From Blastococcus sp. CPCC 205250 (GTDB lineage: Bacteria; Actinomycetota; Actinomycetes; Mycobacteriales; Geodermatophilaceae), in contig NZ_JABGCG010000011.1 in assembly GCF_019799925.1 (NCBI RefSeq), forward strand, positions 62,001 through 126,000: a DNA stretch of 64,000 bases, given 5' to 3'. A program made the position numbers and the translations under genes. The notes beneath the pieces were generated by a model, which saw only the letters and a list, made by a program, of their open reading frames with translations, searched no databases and was not told where the DNA came from. Below, piece by piece: positions 16,073-19,758 of this stretch (position 1 is the stretch's first letter; the number at the start of each line of letters is the position of its first letter).

Positions 16073-16675
16073 GTGACCGAAGCACTGCTGGTGCTGTTGG
16101 GGATCGTCGTCGTCGCGGGCGTGGTCGTCCTGGTGCTCCGGCAGCGGAACCTCCGGCGGCGGAACGCCCCCCGCCCGCGCGTCGACCCGCTCGCCGACGA
16201 GCCGGACCTCTACGACCCGCACGCGATCGGGGTGGGTGACGTGATCACCTACGCCGGGATCGACCACGTCGTCCGCGGGACGATCCGCCTGGAGGAGGGC
16301 GGGGTCACCTGGGCCGAGCACCTGCTCGACGGCTCGACCGGACGCCGCTGGCTGAGCGTCGAGGACGACGAGGGCGACCTGGAGATGACGCTGTGGATGC
16401 GCCGGGAGGGCACCGGCCTGACCCCCGACGGGGACGCCGTGCTCGACGACCGGGTGCACCGGCAGATCGAGCGCGGCCGCGCCGCCTACACGGCGGAGGG
16501 GACGACGGGCACCCCGCCGACCGGCACCGTCGACTACGCCGACTACGCCACCGCCGACCGCACGGGGCTGATCGCGTTCGAGCGCTGGGCGTCGACGCAG
16601 TCGTGGGAGGTCTCCACCGGGCGGGCCGTGAGCCGGGGCGAGCTGACCGTGTACCACCGGACGCCGGAGGCGTGA
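16073..16675 (+). CDS. DUF4178 protein with N-terminal membrane anchor
   Basis: First gene of the five-gene cluster. The GTG at 16073 follows GGAGGAGCTCACCG. The 200-residue protein has one N-terminal membrane helix (about residues 4-22, LLVLLGIVVVAGVVVLVLR), a basic stretch, then a DUF4178-like beta-rich domain: GVGDVITYAGIDHVVRGTIRL, then WAEHLLDG and RRWLSVEDDEGDLEMTLWM, ending with WASTQSWEVSTGRAVSRGELTVYH. DUF4178 proteins often sit beside spermidine-synthase-like genes; no activity is established that I know of. The domain would face the cytoplasm if the basic residues after the helix follow the positive-inside rule. Confidence 0.82.
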   Translation: MTEALLVLLGIVVVAGVVVLVLRQRNLRRRNAPRPRVDPLADEPDLYDPHAIGVGDVITYAGIDHVVRGTIRLEEGGVTWAEHLLDGSTGRRWLSVEDDEGDLEMTLWMRREGTGLTPDGDAVLDDRVHRQIERGRAAYTAEGTTGTPPTGTVDYADYATADRTGLIAFERWASTQSWEVSTGRAVSRGELTVYHRTPEA

Positions 16676-16760
16676 GCCCGCCCGTCCCGCTCCCCGCGAG
16701 CCCGGTGCCCACCCGCACCCGACCGGCCCGGCGGTCGGCCCGCACCGGCGGGAGGCGCCG

Positions 16761-17270
16761 GTGACCGTCCACCTCCTGGACGTGACGCCCCGCGACGTCG
16801 CGGCCGACGCGCTGGGCCTGGTGCTGGACGCACCGGCCCCGCCGGCCCTGGTCGAGGTCACCGTCGACGACGGCCGGGGCGGCGCGGTCACCCTGGGCGT
16901 GCTGGGGGCGTCCCACGTGGTCACCGCCCGCGTGCCGGGGCACCGGCTGACCGAGCAGGTCTCGTGCGACGCGGTGGCCGCCGGCGGCCGCCGGCTGCCC
17001 CGGCGCGCCCGCGTGGGCGGCTACGAGATCGCGTCGGAGACCACCGCGGTCCCGCGCGCGGAGCTGGAGGCGACCGCCGGGCTCCTCCGGACGCGGGCCG
17101 CGACGTCGCCCGGCTGGATCTGCGGGGCCTTCCCGGGCGCCGGGAGCGCGGTGACCGCCCTGACGGCGCAGGCCCTGCCGGACGGCGGCTGGACCTGGCA
17201 GACGTGGCATCTGTACCCCGGCGACGAGGAGGGCGTGATCGTGACCACGCGGAGCAGGTGGCGGCCGTGA
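16761..17270 (+). CDS. DUF2617 family protein
   Basis: This 169-residue cytoplasmic protein matches the actinobacterial DUF2617 pattern: VTVHLLDVTPRDVAADALGL at the start, VLGASHVV in the middle, and TWQTWHLYPGDEEGVIVTTRSRW at the end. The function is unknown. It begins with GTG at 16761, 85 nt after the DUF4178 gene, and its stop overlaps the next start in a GTGA. A conserved Trp/His/Tyr-rich C-terminal strand (GWTWQTWHLYP) is the most striking sequence feature and may form a binding surface. Confidence 0.83.
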   Translation: MTVHLLDVTPRDVAADALGLVLDAPAPPALVEVTVDDGRGGAVTLGVLGASHVVTARVPGHRLTEQVSCDAVAAGGRRLPRRARVGGYEIASETTAVPRAELEATAGLLRTRAATSPGWICGAFPGAGSAVTALTAQALPDGGWTWQTWHLYPGDEEGVIVTTRSRWRP

Positions 17271-17674
17271 CGAGGACCCGGAGGACCGCGGCGCTGGTCG
17301 TCACCGTCGCCGTCCTGGTGGCCGGCTGCGGCGGCAGCGACGACGACGTGCGCGACCACCTCGAGGACACCTACGAGCGGCAGAGCCGCCAGGGCGACAC
17401 CTCGACCTACGCGTCGGACGACCCGGTCGGCACCACGACCGCGGCGATCGCCGACGCGGTGCAGCCCACGGCCCGCCAGGCCGACGGCGGCGCGGAGTAC
17501 CTGCGCTACGACGACGACATCGTCGTGGTGAGCGCCACCGCCGGCGGCAGCAGCATCCGCATCGAGGACCTCGACGGCCGCTACCGCAGCGGCTACTACG
17601 CCTACCTCGGGTCCGGCTTCCGGCCCGGGTCCCCCGCAGCCGGCGGCGACGGCGGCCCGGGGGACGGGAAGTGA
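17267..17674 (+). CDS. DUF4247 lipoprotein
   Basis: A 135-residue exported lipoprotein. The N-terminus MTRTRRTAALVVTVAVLVAGCGGS carries a basic stretch, a hydrophobic core and a lipobox (LVAGC) with Cys near residue 22. The mature part resembles DUF4247: VRDHLEDTYERQSRQGDTSTYASDDPVGTT, then YLRYDDDIVVVSA, SIRIEDLDGRYRSGYYAYLGSGF and a Gly-rich tail. It sits outside the membrane, whereas its neighbours are cytoplasmic or membrane proteins, so the cluster spans the envelope. Start overlaps the DUF2617 stop codon. Confidence 0.83.
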   Translation: MTRTRRTAALVVTVAVLVAGCGGSDDDVRDHLEDTYERQSRQGDTSTYASDDPVGTTTAAIADAVQPTARQADGGAEYLRYDDDIVVVSATAGGSSIRIEDLDGRYRSGYYAYLGSGFRPGSPAAGGDGGPGDGK

Positions 17675-17708
17675 CCCGTTCCGCCCACCCCCACAGCAGG
17701 AGGAAGAC

Positions 17709-18173
17709 GTGCAGATGACACCGCTGGCCCTCGACTTCGGGTCGGTCGACGGCGACCTGCTGGGCGAGGGCGTGCTCGCCACGCTGCTGTACTTCGCCAT
17801 CGGGGCCGGGGTGCTGGCGCTGGGTTTCCTGGTCCTCGACCTGCTCACCCCGGGCAACCTGCGGCGCCAGGTCTACACCGACCACAAGCCCAACGCGGCG
17901 ATCCTGCTCGGCGCCAACCACCTCGCGCTCGCGGTCATCGTGGTGACCGCGATCATGACCAGCAGCGACGACCTGGGGCAGGGGCTGGTCGACTCGGCGG
18001 TCTACGGCGTCCTCGGGGTCGCGCTCCAGGGGCTCGCGCTGCGGCTGCTCGACGCGTTCGTCCCCGGGCACCTGCGCGCGCTGGTCGACGAGCCGCGCAT
18101 GAGCGGCGCGGCCTGGGCGGTGGGCATCAGCCTCGTCGCGATCGGCGCGGTCAACGCGGCCGCCCTGTCGTGA
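17709..18173 (+). CDS. DUF350 membrane protein
   Basis: This 154-residue protein has four membrane helices in two repeats (LATLLYFAIGAGVLALGFLVLDLL, AILLGANHLALAVIVVTAIM, and two after residue 95), as in DUF350. The sequence NAAILLGANHLALA, with the conserved Asn-Ala and His in a helix, is the family signature. It starts with GTG at 17709 after AGGAGGAAGAC; an ATG at 17715 is possible. It lies 34 nt after the DUF4247 gene and 4 nt before the spermidine-synthase-like gene. DUF350 proteins are small membrane proteins of unproved transport or scaffold function. Confidence 0.86.
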   Translation: MQMTPLALDFGSVDGDLLGEGVLATLLYFAIGAGVLALGFLVLDLLTPGNLRRQVYTDHKPNAAILLGANHLALAVIVVTAIMTSSDDLGQGLVDSAVYGVLGVALQGLALRLLDAFVPGHLRALVDEPRMSGAAWAVGISLVAIGAVNAAALS

Positions 18174-18177
18174 GCGG

Positions 18178-19758
18178 ATGAGCTCCACGCCCGGCGGGAC
18201 GGCGGTCGGCGCGACCGCGCCCGCCGTCCTCGGGGGCGGCCGTGCCCGGCCGCTGCTGCTGGCGGCGGTCGCGGTGTGCGCGGCGTGCGGCCTGGTCTAC
18301 GAGCTGGTCCTGCTGACCCTCTCGGTCAGCCTGGCCGGGGGCGGCATCACCCAGACCTCGCTGATCGTCGCCGGCTTCGTCGCCGCCCTCGGGGCGGGGG
18401 CGCTGCTGGTCAAGCCCCTGCTCGGGCACGCCGCGGCGACGTTCGTCGCCGTCGAGATCGTGCTCGGCATCGCCGGCGGACTCAGCGCCGTGACGCTGTA
18501 CGTGACGTTCTCGTACTACGGCACCAGTGGCGCGGTCCTGGTCGGGGCGACCGCGGTGCTGGGCGTCCTGGTGGGGGCCGAGGTGCCCCTGCTGATGACG
18601 CTGCTGCAGAGCGGGCGCTCGGACGTCGACGCGCGCGGCAGCGGGCGGGTCCTCGCCGACCTCAACGCGGCCGACTACGCGGGGGCGCTCGTCGGCGGAC
18701 TGGTCTGGCCGTTCGTGCTGCTGCCCTGGGCGGGGCAGGTCCGCGGTGCCGCGCTCACCGGCATGGTGAACCTCGTCGCCGCGGCGGTCGTGGCCGGCCT
18801 GGTGCTGCGGACGCAGCTCAGCGCGCGGGCCCGCCGGGCCGCGACGGCCGCCCTGCTCGTCTCCGCGGCGCTGCTGGGGGTGCTGCTGCTGCGCGCCCAG
18901 GACATCGAGACGACCGCGCGGCAGCGTCTCTACGACGACCCGATCGTGGCCTACACCCGCTCGGCCCACCAGGAGGTCGTGGTCACCGAGCGCTCCGGGG
19001 ACGTGCGGCTGTACCTGGACGGCGACCTGCAGTTCTCCAGCGTCGACGAGTACCGCTACACCGAGGCCCTGGTCCACCCGGTCCTGGCCCGCGACCCCGC
19101 CCGGGTGCTCGTCCTCGGCGGGGGCGACGGCCTGGCCGCCCGCGAGGTCCTCCGCCACCCCTCGGTCCGGGAGGTGGTGCAGGTCGAGCTCGACCCGGCC
19201 GTCGTCGAGCTGGCCACCACCCGGCTGGCCGGGCTGAACGACTCCGCGCTCAGCGACCCCCGGGTCGACGTCGTGGTCGACGACGCCTTCTCCTGGCTCC
19301 GCGGGCCCGACGCCGAGGGGTTCGACGCCGTGGTCGTCGACATGCCCGACCCGGACACCCCGGCGCTGGGCCGGCTGTACTCGACCGAGTTCTACGGCCT
19401 GGTGGCCGCCGCGCTCGCCCCCGGCGGGCTGGTCGCCGTCCAGGCCGGCAGCCCGTACTCCACCCCGACCGCGTTCTGGCGCACCGTGTCGACGCTGGCC
19501 TCGCCCGGGATGGCCGTCACGCCCTACCACGTGCACGTGCCGAGCTTCGGCGACTGGGGCTTCGCGCTCGCGCAGCGCGGCTCCGTCCCGCCGGAGCCGG
19601 CGCTGTCACCGCAGGCGCCGGAGCTGCGCTCCCTCGACGCGGCGACGCTGGAGGCGGCCACCGTCTTCCCCGCCGACCGCCGCCCCCAGCAGCTCGAGCC
19701 GTCGACGCTGGACTCCCCGCGGATCGTCGAGGACATGCGCGGCGGCTACGTCGGCTGA
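18178..19758 (+). CDS. Membrane-bound spermidine synthase-like aminopropyltransferase
   Basis: The 526-residue protein fuses a seven-helix membrane domain (residues about 20-240) to a spermidine-synthase-like methyltransferase fold. Visible motifs are the decarboxylated-SAM/SAM loop VLVLGGGDGLAAREVL near 310, the acidic strand end QVELDPAVVEL, DDAFSWL, and the catalytic-type segment VVDMPDPDTPALGRLYS. Enzymes of this type would transfer an aminopropyl group, but in this membrane subfamily the substrate is unproved; no speD or speA lies near. It is the last gene of the DUF4178-DUF2617-DUF4247-DUF350 set, 4 nt after DUF350, which suggests that the five products work together at the membrane. 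Confidence 0.88.
   Translation: MSSTPGGTAVGATAPAVLGGGRARPLLLAAVAVCAACGLVYELVLLTLSVSLAGGGITQTSLIVAGFVAALGAGALLVKPLLGHAAATFVAVEIVLGIAGGLSAVTLYVTFSYYGTSGAVLVGATAVLGVLVGAEVPLLMTLLQSGRSDVDARGSGRVLADLNAADYAGALVGGLVWPFVLLPWAGQVRGAALTGMVNLVAAAVVAGLVLRTQLSARARRAATAALLVSAALLGVLLLRAQDIETTARQRLYDDPIVAYTRSAHQEVVVTERSGDVRLYLDGDLQFSSVDEYRYTEALVHPVLARDPARVLVLGGGDGLAAREVLRHPSVREVVQVELDPAVVELATTRLAGLNDSALSDPRVDVVVDDAFSWLRGPDAEGFDAVVVDMPDPDTPALGRLYSTEFYGLVAAALAPGGLVAVQAGSPYSTPTAFWRTVSTLASPGMAVTPYHVHVPSFGDWGFALAQRGSVPPEPALSPQAPELRSLDAATLEAATVFPADRRPQQLEPSTLDSPRIVEDMRGGYVG

Follow-up and report, generated by a model that had tools for sequence, protein, structure and literature searches.

The window analyzed here covers 64,000 nucleotides (G000:C18:62001-126000) of an actinobacterial draft genome of 5.28 Mb and carries five adjacent plus-strand genes that encode, in gene order, a DUF4178 protein, a DUF2617 protein, a DUF4247 lipoprotein, a DUF350 protein and a transmembrane SpeE-like enzyme (TM-SpeE). 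The explanation we favor, held tentatively and at somewhat less than an even chance, is a self-contained envelope aminopropylation system in which DUF2617 would provide for the donor and the tail lysine of the DUF4247 lipoprotein would act as the acceptor. Cytoplasmic DUF2617 would supply decarboxylated S-adenosylmethionine (dcSAM), or an equivalent decarboxylation, in place of the absent SpeD; TM-SpeE would transfer the aminopropyl group, most likely to the lysine with which the exported lipoprotein ends; and DUF350 and the membrane-anchored DUF4178 protein would be accessory parts of a membrane complex. A preliminary description of the locus had proposed an undescribed envelope aminopropyl system and left donor and acceptor open. 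Such a system fits all of the evidence, but its status as undescribed did not survive: the operon type is real and conserved, was published in 2024 together with its variant (PMC11237479), and is common in actinobacteria, M. tuberculosis included. What is new here is the proposed donor route (DUF2617 for SpeD) and the proposed acceptor (a C-terminal lysine tail), toward which the comparisons now point.

Composition and spread of the cluster

The positions, spacing and families previously assigned to the five genes were all confirmed by open reading frame (ORF), Pfam and NCBIfam analyses, and the predicted membrane and export features held up in hydropathy plots. The ORFs are separated by junctions of 85, -4, 34 and 4 nt, and in a Pfam scan of the five proteins every match lay well above cut-off (all window coordinates given here are on the plus strand). 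In the DUF4178 protein (200 aa; 16073..16675; PF13785, 104 bits), a single membrane segment at the N-terminus precedes a strongly basic stretch, because of which the DUF4178 domain is predicted to be cytoplasmic. DUF2617 (169 aa; 16761..17270; PF10936, 164 bits) is soluble, with zero membrane segments, the DUF4247 protein (135 aa; 17267..17674; PF14042, 100 bits) carries the lipobox VAGC, and the DUF350 protein of the YjfL family (17709..18173; PF03994, 84 bits) has four membrane segments. A second DUF350 gene is present in the same genome (L147; G000:C329:146933-147340), with no cluster partners recognized around it. TM-SpeE (526 aa; 18178..19758; Pfam Spermine_synth, 113 bits) has seven membrane segments ahead of a C-terminal polyamine aminopropyltransferase domain.

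TM-SpeE scored 622.7 bits against the NCBIfam polyamine aminopropyltransferase model NF002956/PRK03612, for which the curated cut-off is 472, and the best solved relatives of its SpeE domain were spermidine synthases and aminopropyltransferases. Among 87 TM-SpeE proteins, the Q, DE..Y.E, GGGDG and D-x-x-D elements were all invariant or nearly so. G314, G316, D317 and G318 of the GGGDG donor-binding motif (residues 314-318; 19117..19131) were present in every protein, as was D391 of the D-x-x-D catalytic motif (DMPD, residues 388-391; 19339..19350), with D388 present in 86. With catalytic residues invariant in 86-87 of the 87 proteins, a SpeE that has lost its catalytic site was rejected, and the loss of SAM-site residues in most relatives, an outcome contemplated earlier, was not observed.

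Scanning genomes with an alignment of DUF2617 yielded 80 loci. The complete five-gene set, in the same order and on one strand, was present in 66 of these, confirming the conservation of order; eight had one or two cluster genes missing or undetected, one was cut by a contig end, and five contained DUF2617 alone. The clustering is far beyond chance. The closest DUF2617 relatives came from Modestobacter, Blastococcus and Pseudonocardia, from which the host is likely to be Geodermatophilaceae-like. The neighborhood, rather than being limited to close relatives, spans different families and is also seen in G121, a genome from a different class of the phylum, where DUF4178, DUF2617, a lysine-tailed ORF and TM-SpeE occur together. 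The suggestion that G121 has no SpeE beside DUF2617 was rejected, since TM-SpeE was found there. DUF2617 had no match in the plasmid collection. In a class sample of 198 related genomes, which is phylogenetically uneven so that p-values are indicative only, 42 genomes had DUF2617 and 45 had a TM-SpeE above cut-off, with all 42 DUF2617 genomes among the latter. At least 12 g5 genomes (large, probably Streptomyces) have the cluster reduced to DUF2617 and TM-SpeE, and because just this pair is kept there, it is taken to be the cluster core.

The missing donor enzyme and DUF2617

No polyamine synthesis gene had been noticed near the cluster, and the donor gap holds genome-wide: a whole-genome search gave no PF02675 (SpeD) match, and the locus is not a canonical polyamine locus. 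SpeD was found in 7 of the 198 genomes of the class sample. Among its 45 TM-SpeE genomes, 42 have DUF2617 and the remaining three all have SpeD, a complementarity with a Fisher p of 0.0007, uncorrected for relatedness. These three, G050, G244 and G216, belong to two genera, and the gene missing from their clusters is precisely DUF2617, at its place between DUF4178 and DUF4247. Conversely, 40 of the 42 DUF2617 genomes have no SpeD, and just two, G023 and G249, have a SpeD-like gene, whose product reads SASHLSIHTWPEFSLANVDLLAYG, with a Tyr at the position of catalytic Cys83 (for the roles of SpeD Ser63, His68 and Cys83, see PMC10407285). The SpeD-like proteins L120, L121, L129 and L131, from DUF2617-positive g5/Streptomyces genomes, carry Tyr at this position (VDLLAYG), and because it replaces the catalytic Cys83 they are probably not SAM decarboxylases.

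The same pattern was seen beyond the class sample. No SpeD was found in 26 of the 28 DUF2617 genomes reached via the loci, and no SpeD motif in the 80 DUF2617 loci. Ten of 14 named control genomes had a SpeE-family match; eight of these had SpeD, two (C. glutamicum and H. volcanii) had DUF2617, and none had both. Weak SpeE-like matches in genomes with neither SpeD nor DUF2617 were considered as counter-examples and rejected as a different enzyme group, because in all 19 that were read Gln285 and Tyr294 are missing and D-x-DNGP takes the place of the motif with the second catalytic Asp. A soluble SpeE-like group (L158, L169, L156 and others) with D-x-DNGP in place of D-x-x-D and without acceptor-site residues occurs in many actinobacteria; it is a separate enzyme family that SpeE profiles often pick up.

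Outside actinobacteria, plasmid-borne TM-SpeE operons of proteobacteria and Gemmatirosa had speD inside the operon in five of six examined. The Alteromonas operon consists of DUF350, a lipoprotein, DUF4178, TelA, an unknown gene, speD and TM-SpeE, and that of Novosphingobium of SPFH, two DUF4178 genes, a small transmembrane protein, DUF350, TM-SpeE, an oxidoreductase and speD; the Burkholderia, Ensifer and Gemmatirosa operons likewise have speD, and in Tritonibacter speD was not seen within 15 kb. The TelA-like toxic anion resistance gene lies at L140:5709-6815, within the Alteromonas TM-SpeE/SpeD/DUF4178 operon.

DUF2617 also occurs alone, with the other four cluster genes not nearby, in M. 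asiaticum and its relatives, five mycobacterial genomes in all (L064, L071, L075, L080 and L095). The gene sits between ruvC-like and yebC-like genes in the two loci read, and the key DUF2617 residues are kept in L064, the aligned lone copy. Neither TM-SpeE over cut-off nor SpeD was found in these five genomes, each of which has a SpeE-domain match in a frame of ~640-690 aa. The sole frame scanned with Pfam, from M. asiaticum DSM 44297, is an ornithine-decarboxylase-type/SpeE (ODC-SpeE) fusion; the mycobacterial fusion is located at L124:3128-5044 (minus strand). In G219 (L123), the neighbors of the ODC-SpeE gene include a glutathionylspermidine-synthetase-like gene and another, second copy of DUF350. 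The matching locus of G244 (genus g3) has a separate decarboxylase and then a SpeD-SpeE fusion (L118:828-2048, minus strand), and the SpeE part of G244 is 63% identical, and its decarboxylase 54% identical, to the corresponding part of the mycobacterial fusion. SpeD is absent from the mycobacterial locus and DUF2617 is kept, while in G244 the reverse is true, which is the strongest single argument for DUF2617 doing the job of SpeD.

Taken together, the complementarity, the in-operon speD elsewhere and the mycobacterial ODC-SpeE with a lone DUF2617 suggest that DUF2617 probably works like SpeD, without any claim that it belongs to the SpeD family. The lack of SpeD from 40 of 42 DUF2617 genomes could also be accommodated if TM-SpeE used SAM itself and moved an aminocarboxypropyl or methyl group, with DUF2617 decarboxylating the product or acting unrelatedly, and such a scheme gains from DUF2617 not being demonstrably SpeD-like. 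However, the aminopropyltransferase signature of TM-SpeE is intact, the same operon type elsewhere includes SpeD, and the mycobacterial ODC-SpeE has a SpeE portion 63% identical to one that is fused to SpeD, so that direct use of SAM appears improbable.

Residues of DUF2617 itself bear on its proposed SpeD-like role. Those invariant in alignments A1 and A2 include LGAS51-H52, E65-x-V-[SA]-C69, T132 and W-x-TWH150-x-YP, and these motifs resemble SESH, D-x-x-T-C83, the S/T of F-x-PQG[VI][ST] and H68-T-W-P of SpeD; the profile alignment is weak. Ser51 of the LGASH motif (Ser51-His52 codons, 16911..16916) is a candidate pyruvoyl serine by analogy only with SpeD SESH; Cys69 of E-x-V-[SA]-C (16965..16967) is a candidate counterpart of SpeD Cys83, and His150 of TWH-x-YP (17208..17210) of SpeD His68 (HTWP). 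In a previous comparison, DUF2617 was predicted to be a beta-sandwich enzyme with two His, one Asp and one Glu conserved (PMC11237479).

A candidate acceptor and the weighing of the proposal

The DUF4247 protein ends in a Gly-rich tail, GGDGGPGDGK, whose last residue is a conserved Lys (17642..17671). A C-terminal Lys was present in 83 of 84 DUF4247 homologues from a similarity search, the exception being L076, where the locus ends shortly after, as compared to 1.3% of the 928 other ORFs in the same loci. The tail is usually Gly-rich, with FRGGG[PS]GxGK found in many lineages. In seven other TM-SpeE clusters, an exported or membrane-anchored protein without a DUF4247 match also ends in Lys; lysine tails read SSFRGGGSGSGK in G265, NRLGGGPESGK in Ensifer, SFRNRGPSSGK in Alteromonas, SGYTGPSHK in Novosphingobium, YSSYGSHK in Burkholderia, SARFRHGK in Gemmatirosa and NSNRVK in Tritonibacter. 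With its butylamine side chain, lysine resembles putrescine, which SpeE normally uses as acceptor, and because of this resemblance the C-terminal lysine of DUF4247 is proposed as a candidate that may accept the aminopropyl group. By analogy, the sister DUF350 operon of E. coli, whose exported protein terminates in WGG and whose enzyme is annotated as a peptide--spermidine ligase, hints independently that operons of this class attach polyamine groups to protein tails.

Several observations weigh against the proposal. PF02675 (AdoMet_dc) gave no match to 16 DUF2617 members up to an E-value of 10, and hhalign comparisons of DUF2617 with SpeD were weak (p about 0.05-0.1, probability about 1%). Against a null of 149 column-shuffled profiles, six scored as high as the DUF2617-SpeD match (p about 0.04), and the part aligned to the matching SpeD segment was the hairpin under one treatment of columns and the C-terminal half under another, with poor scores. 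DUF2617 as a plain SpeD homologue by sequence was thus rejected, as Pfam, a PDB profile search and hhalign all lacked a significant match. AlphaFold models of full-length DUF2617 and of its C-terminal half alone had predicted local distance difference test (pLDDT) scores of 94.5 and 97, respectively, and were searched with Foldseek/VIA against the PDB, the full model also against BFVD. S-adenosylmethionine decarboxylase (AdoMetDC) was not among the fold matches listed from either database, the full model had no clear PDB match, and the C-terminal half resembled START/Bet v1 helix-grip proteins (Z of 6 to 8.6), a likeness that may reflect only a common arrangement. The SpeD-positive, DUF2617-negative sample of the class amounts to only three genomes from two genera, and no lysine-tailed protein was found near the g5 DUF2617-TM-SpeE pairs. 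Finally, the charge distribution in all 87 TM-SpeE proteins favors an N-in orientation by the positive-inside rule, which with seven helices predicts that the SpeE domain lies outside the cell, on the side of the tail and away from cytoplasmic SAM. On these predictions, either the helix count of TM-SpeE is wrong or dcSAM must cross the membrane.

The g5 pairs would sit more comfortably with a membrane-tethered route to free polyamines, in which DUF2617 again stands in for SpeD, putrescine or cadaverine is converted by TM-SpeE into spermidine or a different small polyamine, DUF4247, DUF350 and DUF4178 serve in export, sensing or membrane placement, and no protein is modified. The canonical aminopropyltransferase residues of TM-SpeE agree with this route, as does the lone DUF2617 found alongside an ODC-SpeE fusion, which should yield a free polyamine. 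It leaves unexplained, however, why unrelated exported proteins end in lysine almost without exception. Moreover, H. volcanii has seven-transmembrane SpeE homologues, yet its spermidine is undetectable (PMC5178350), and the undetectable polyamines of M. smegmatis (PMC8503589) would count in the same direction if that species carries the cluster. We regard the free-polyamine route as unlikely, although far from negligible.

If the lysine tail is indeed the acceptor, an operon that is widespread and to which genes of M. tuberculosis belong would gain a testable biochemical function and the envelope a new protein modification. The most specific form of the aminopropylation proposal, a previously unrecognized N-aminopropylation of the C-terminal lysine of an exported protein, with DUF2617 feeding it as a SAM decarboxylase of a new kind and taking the place of SpeD across many actinobacteria and in one haloarchaeon or more, is doubtful and would have to be called unlikely as a whole.

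Comparison with known systems

Ravi et al. (mSystems, 2024; PMC11237479) described operons that combine TM-SpeE, DUF350 and DUF4178 with PspA and CesT/Tir, as well as a variant containing DUF4247 and DUF2617, for which CCP45395.1 and CCP45394.1 are example accessions. The five domain families found here are identical to those of that work, and DUF350, DUF4178, TM-SpeE, DUF4247 and DUF2617 lie adjacent on one strand, as in the DUF4247-DUF2617 variant. We take CCP45395.1 to be Rv2599 and CCP45394.1 to be Rv2598. The speE gene of M. tuberculosis is Rv2601 (PMC11841054). In the earlier work, DUF4247 and DUF2617 are treated as a substitute for the CesT/Tir-PspA pair, DUF2617 is not proposed to replace SpeD, and the lysine tail is unmentioned in the main text (PMC11237479). 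Its operon comparison favors a PspA-type membrane stress system, in which the polyamine level or aminopropylation of unnamed substrates would tune membrane structure, and the SPFH/band-7 proteins of the Burkholderia and Novosphingobium operons are in line with it. Yet the five genes include neither PspA, for which the Pfam scan gave no match, nor a band-7 protein, our comparisons show DUF2617 and SpeD replacing each other, and DUF2617 persists alone with an ODC-SpeE fusion and without a membrane partner. As a rival, a PspA-type system is quite improbable, but at the physiological level it is compatible with envelope aminopropylation.

In comparison with SpeD (PF02675, class 1b), DUF2617 holds the same genomic role beside SpeE and shares an invariant Ser-His, followed by [DE]..C, and an H-x-[WY]P motif, but it differs in having no PF02675 match, a weak profile score and no AdoMetDC among the fold matches listed. 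The yjfIJKLMC operon of E. coli resembles the present cluster in its DUF350 protein (YjfL), an exported DUF1190 protein (YjfM) that ends in WGG, and a polyamine enzyme, YjfC, annotated as a peptide--spermidine ligase. It differs in having its own PspA and an ATP-grasp ligase and in lacking SpeE, DUF4178, DUF2617 and the C-terminal lysine.

Among haloarchaea, a plasmid of Halobaculum rubrum (L146:4014-5792) carries SpeD (PF02675), with a soluble SpeE two genes away, in contrast to a report of no AdoMet decarboxylase in sequenced halophiles (PMC5178350). Haloferax volcanii, whose genome has DUF2617 but no SpeD, encodes the seven-transmembrane SpeE homologues HVO_0255 and HVO_B0357. Putrescine-binding residues are not conserved in these homologues, and the source of their dcSAM was posed as a question (PMC5178350). 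If DUF2617 supplies dcSAM, this donor question would be answered for the halophilic archaea, and likewise for mycobacteria and corynebacteria.

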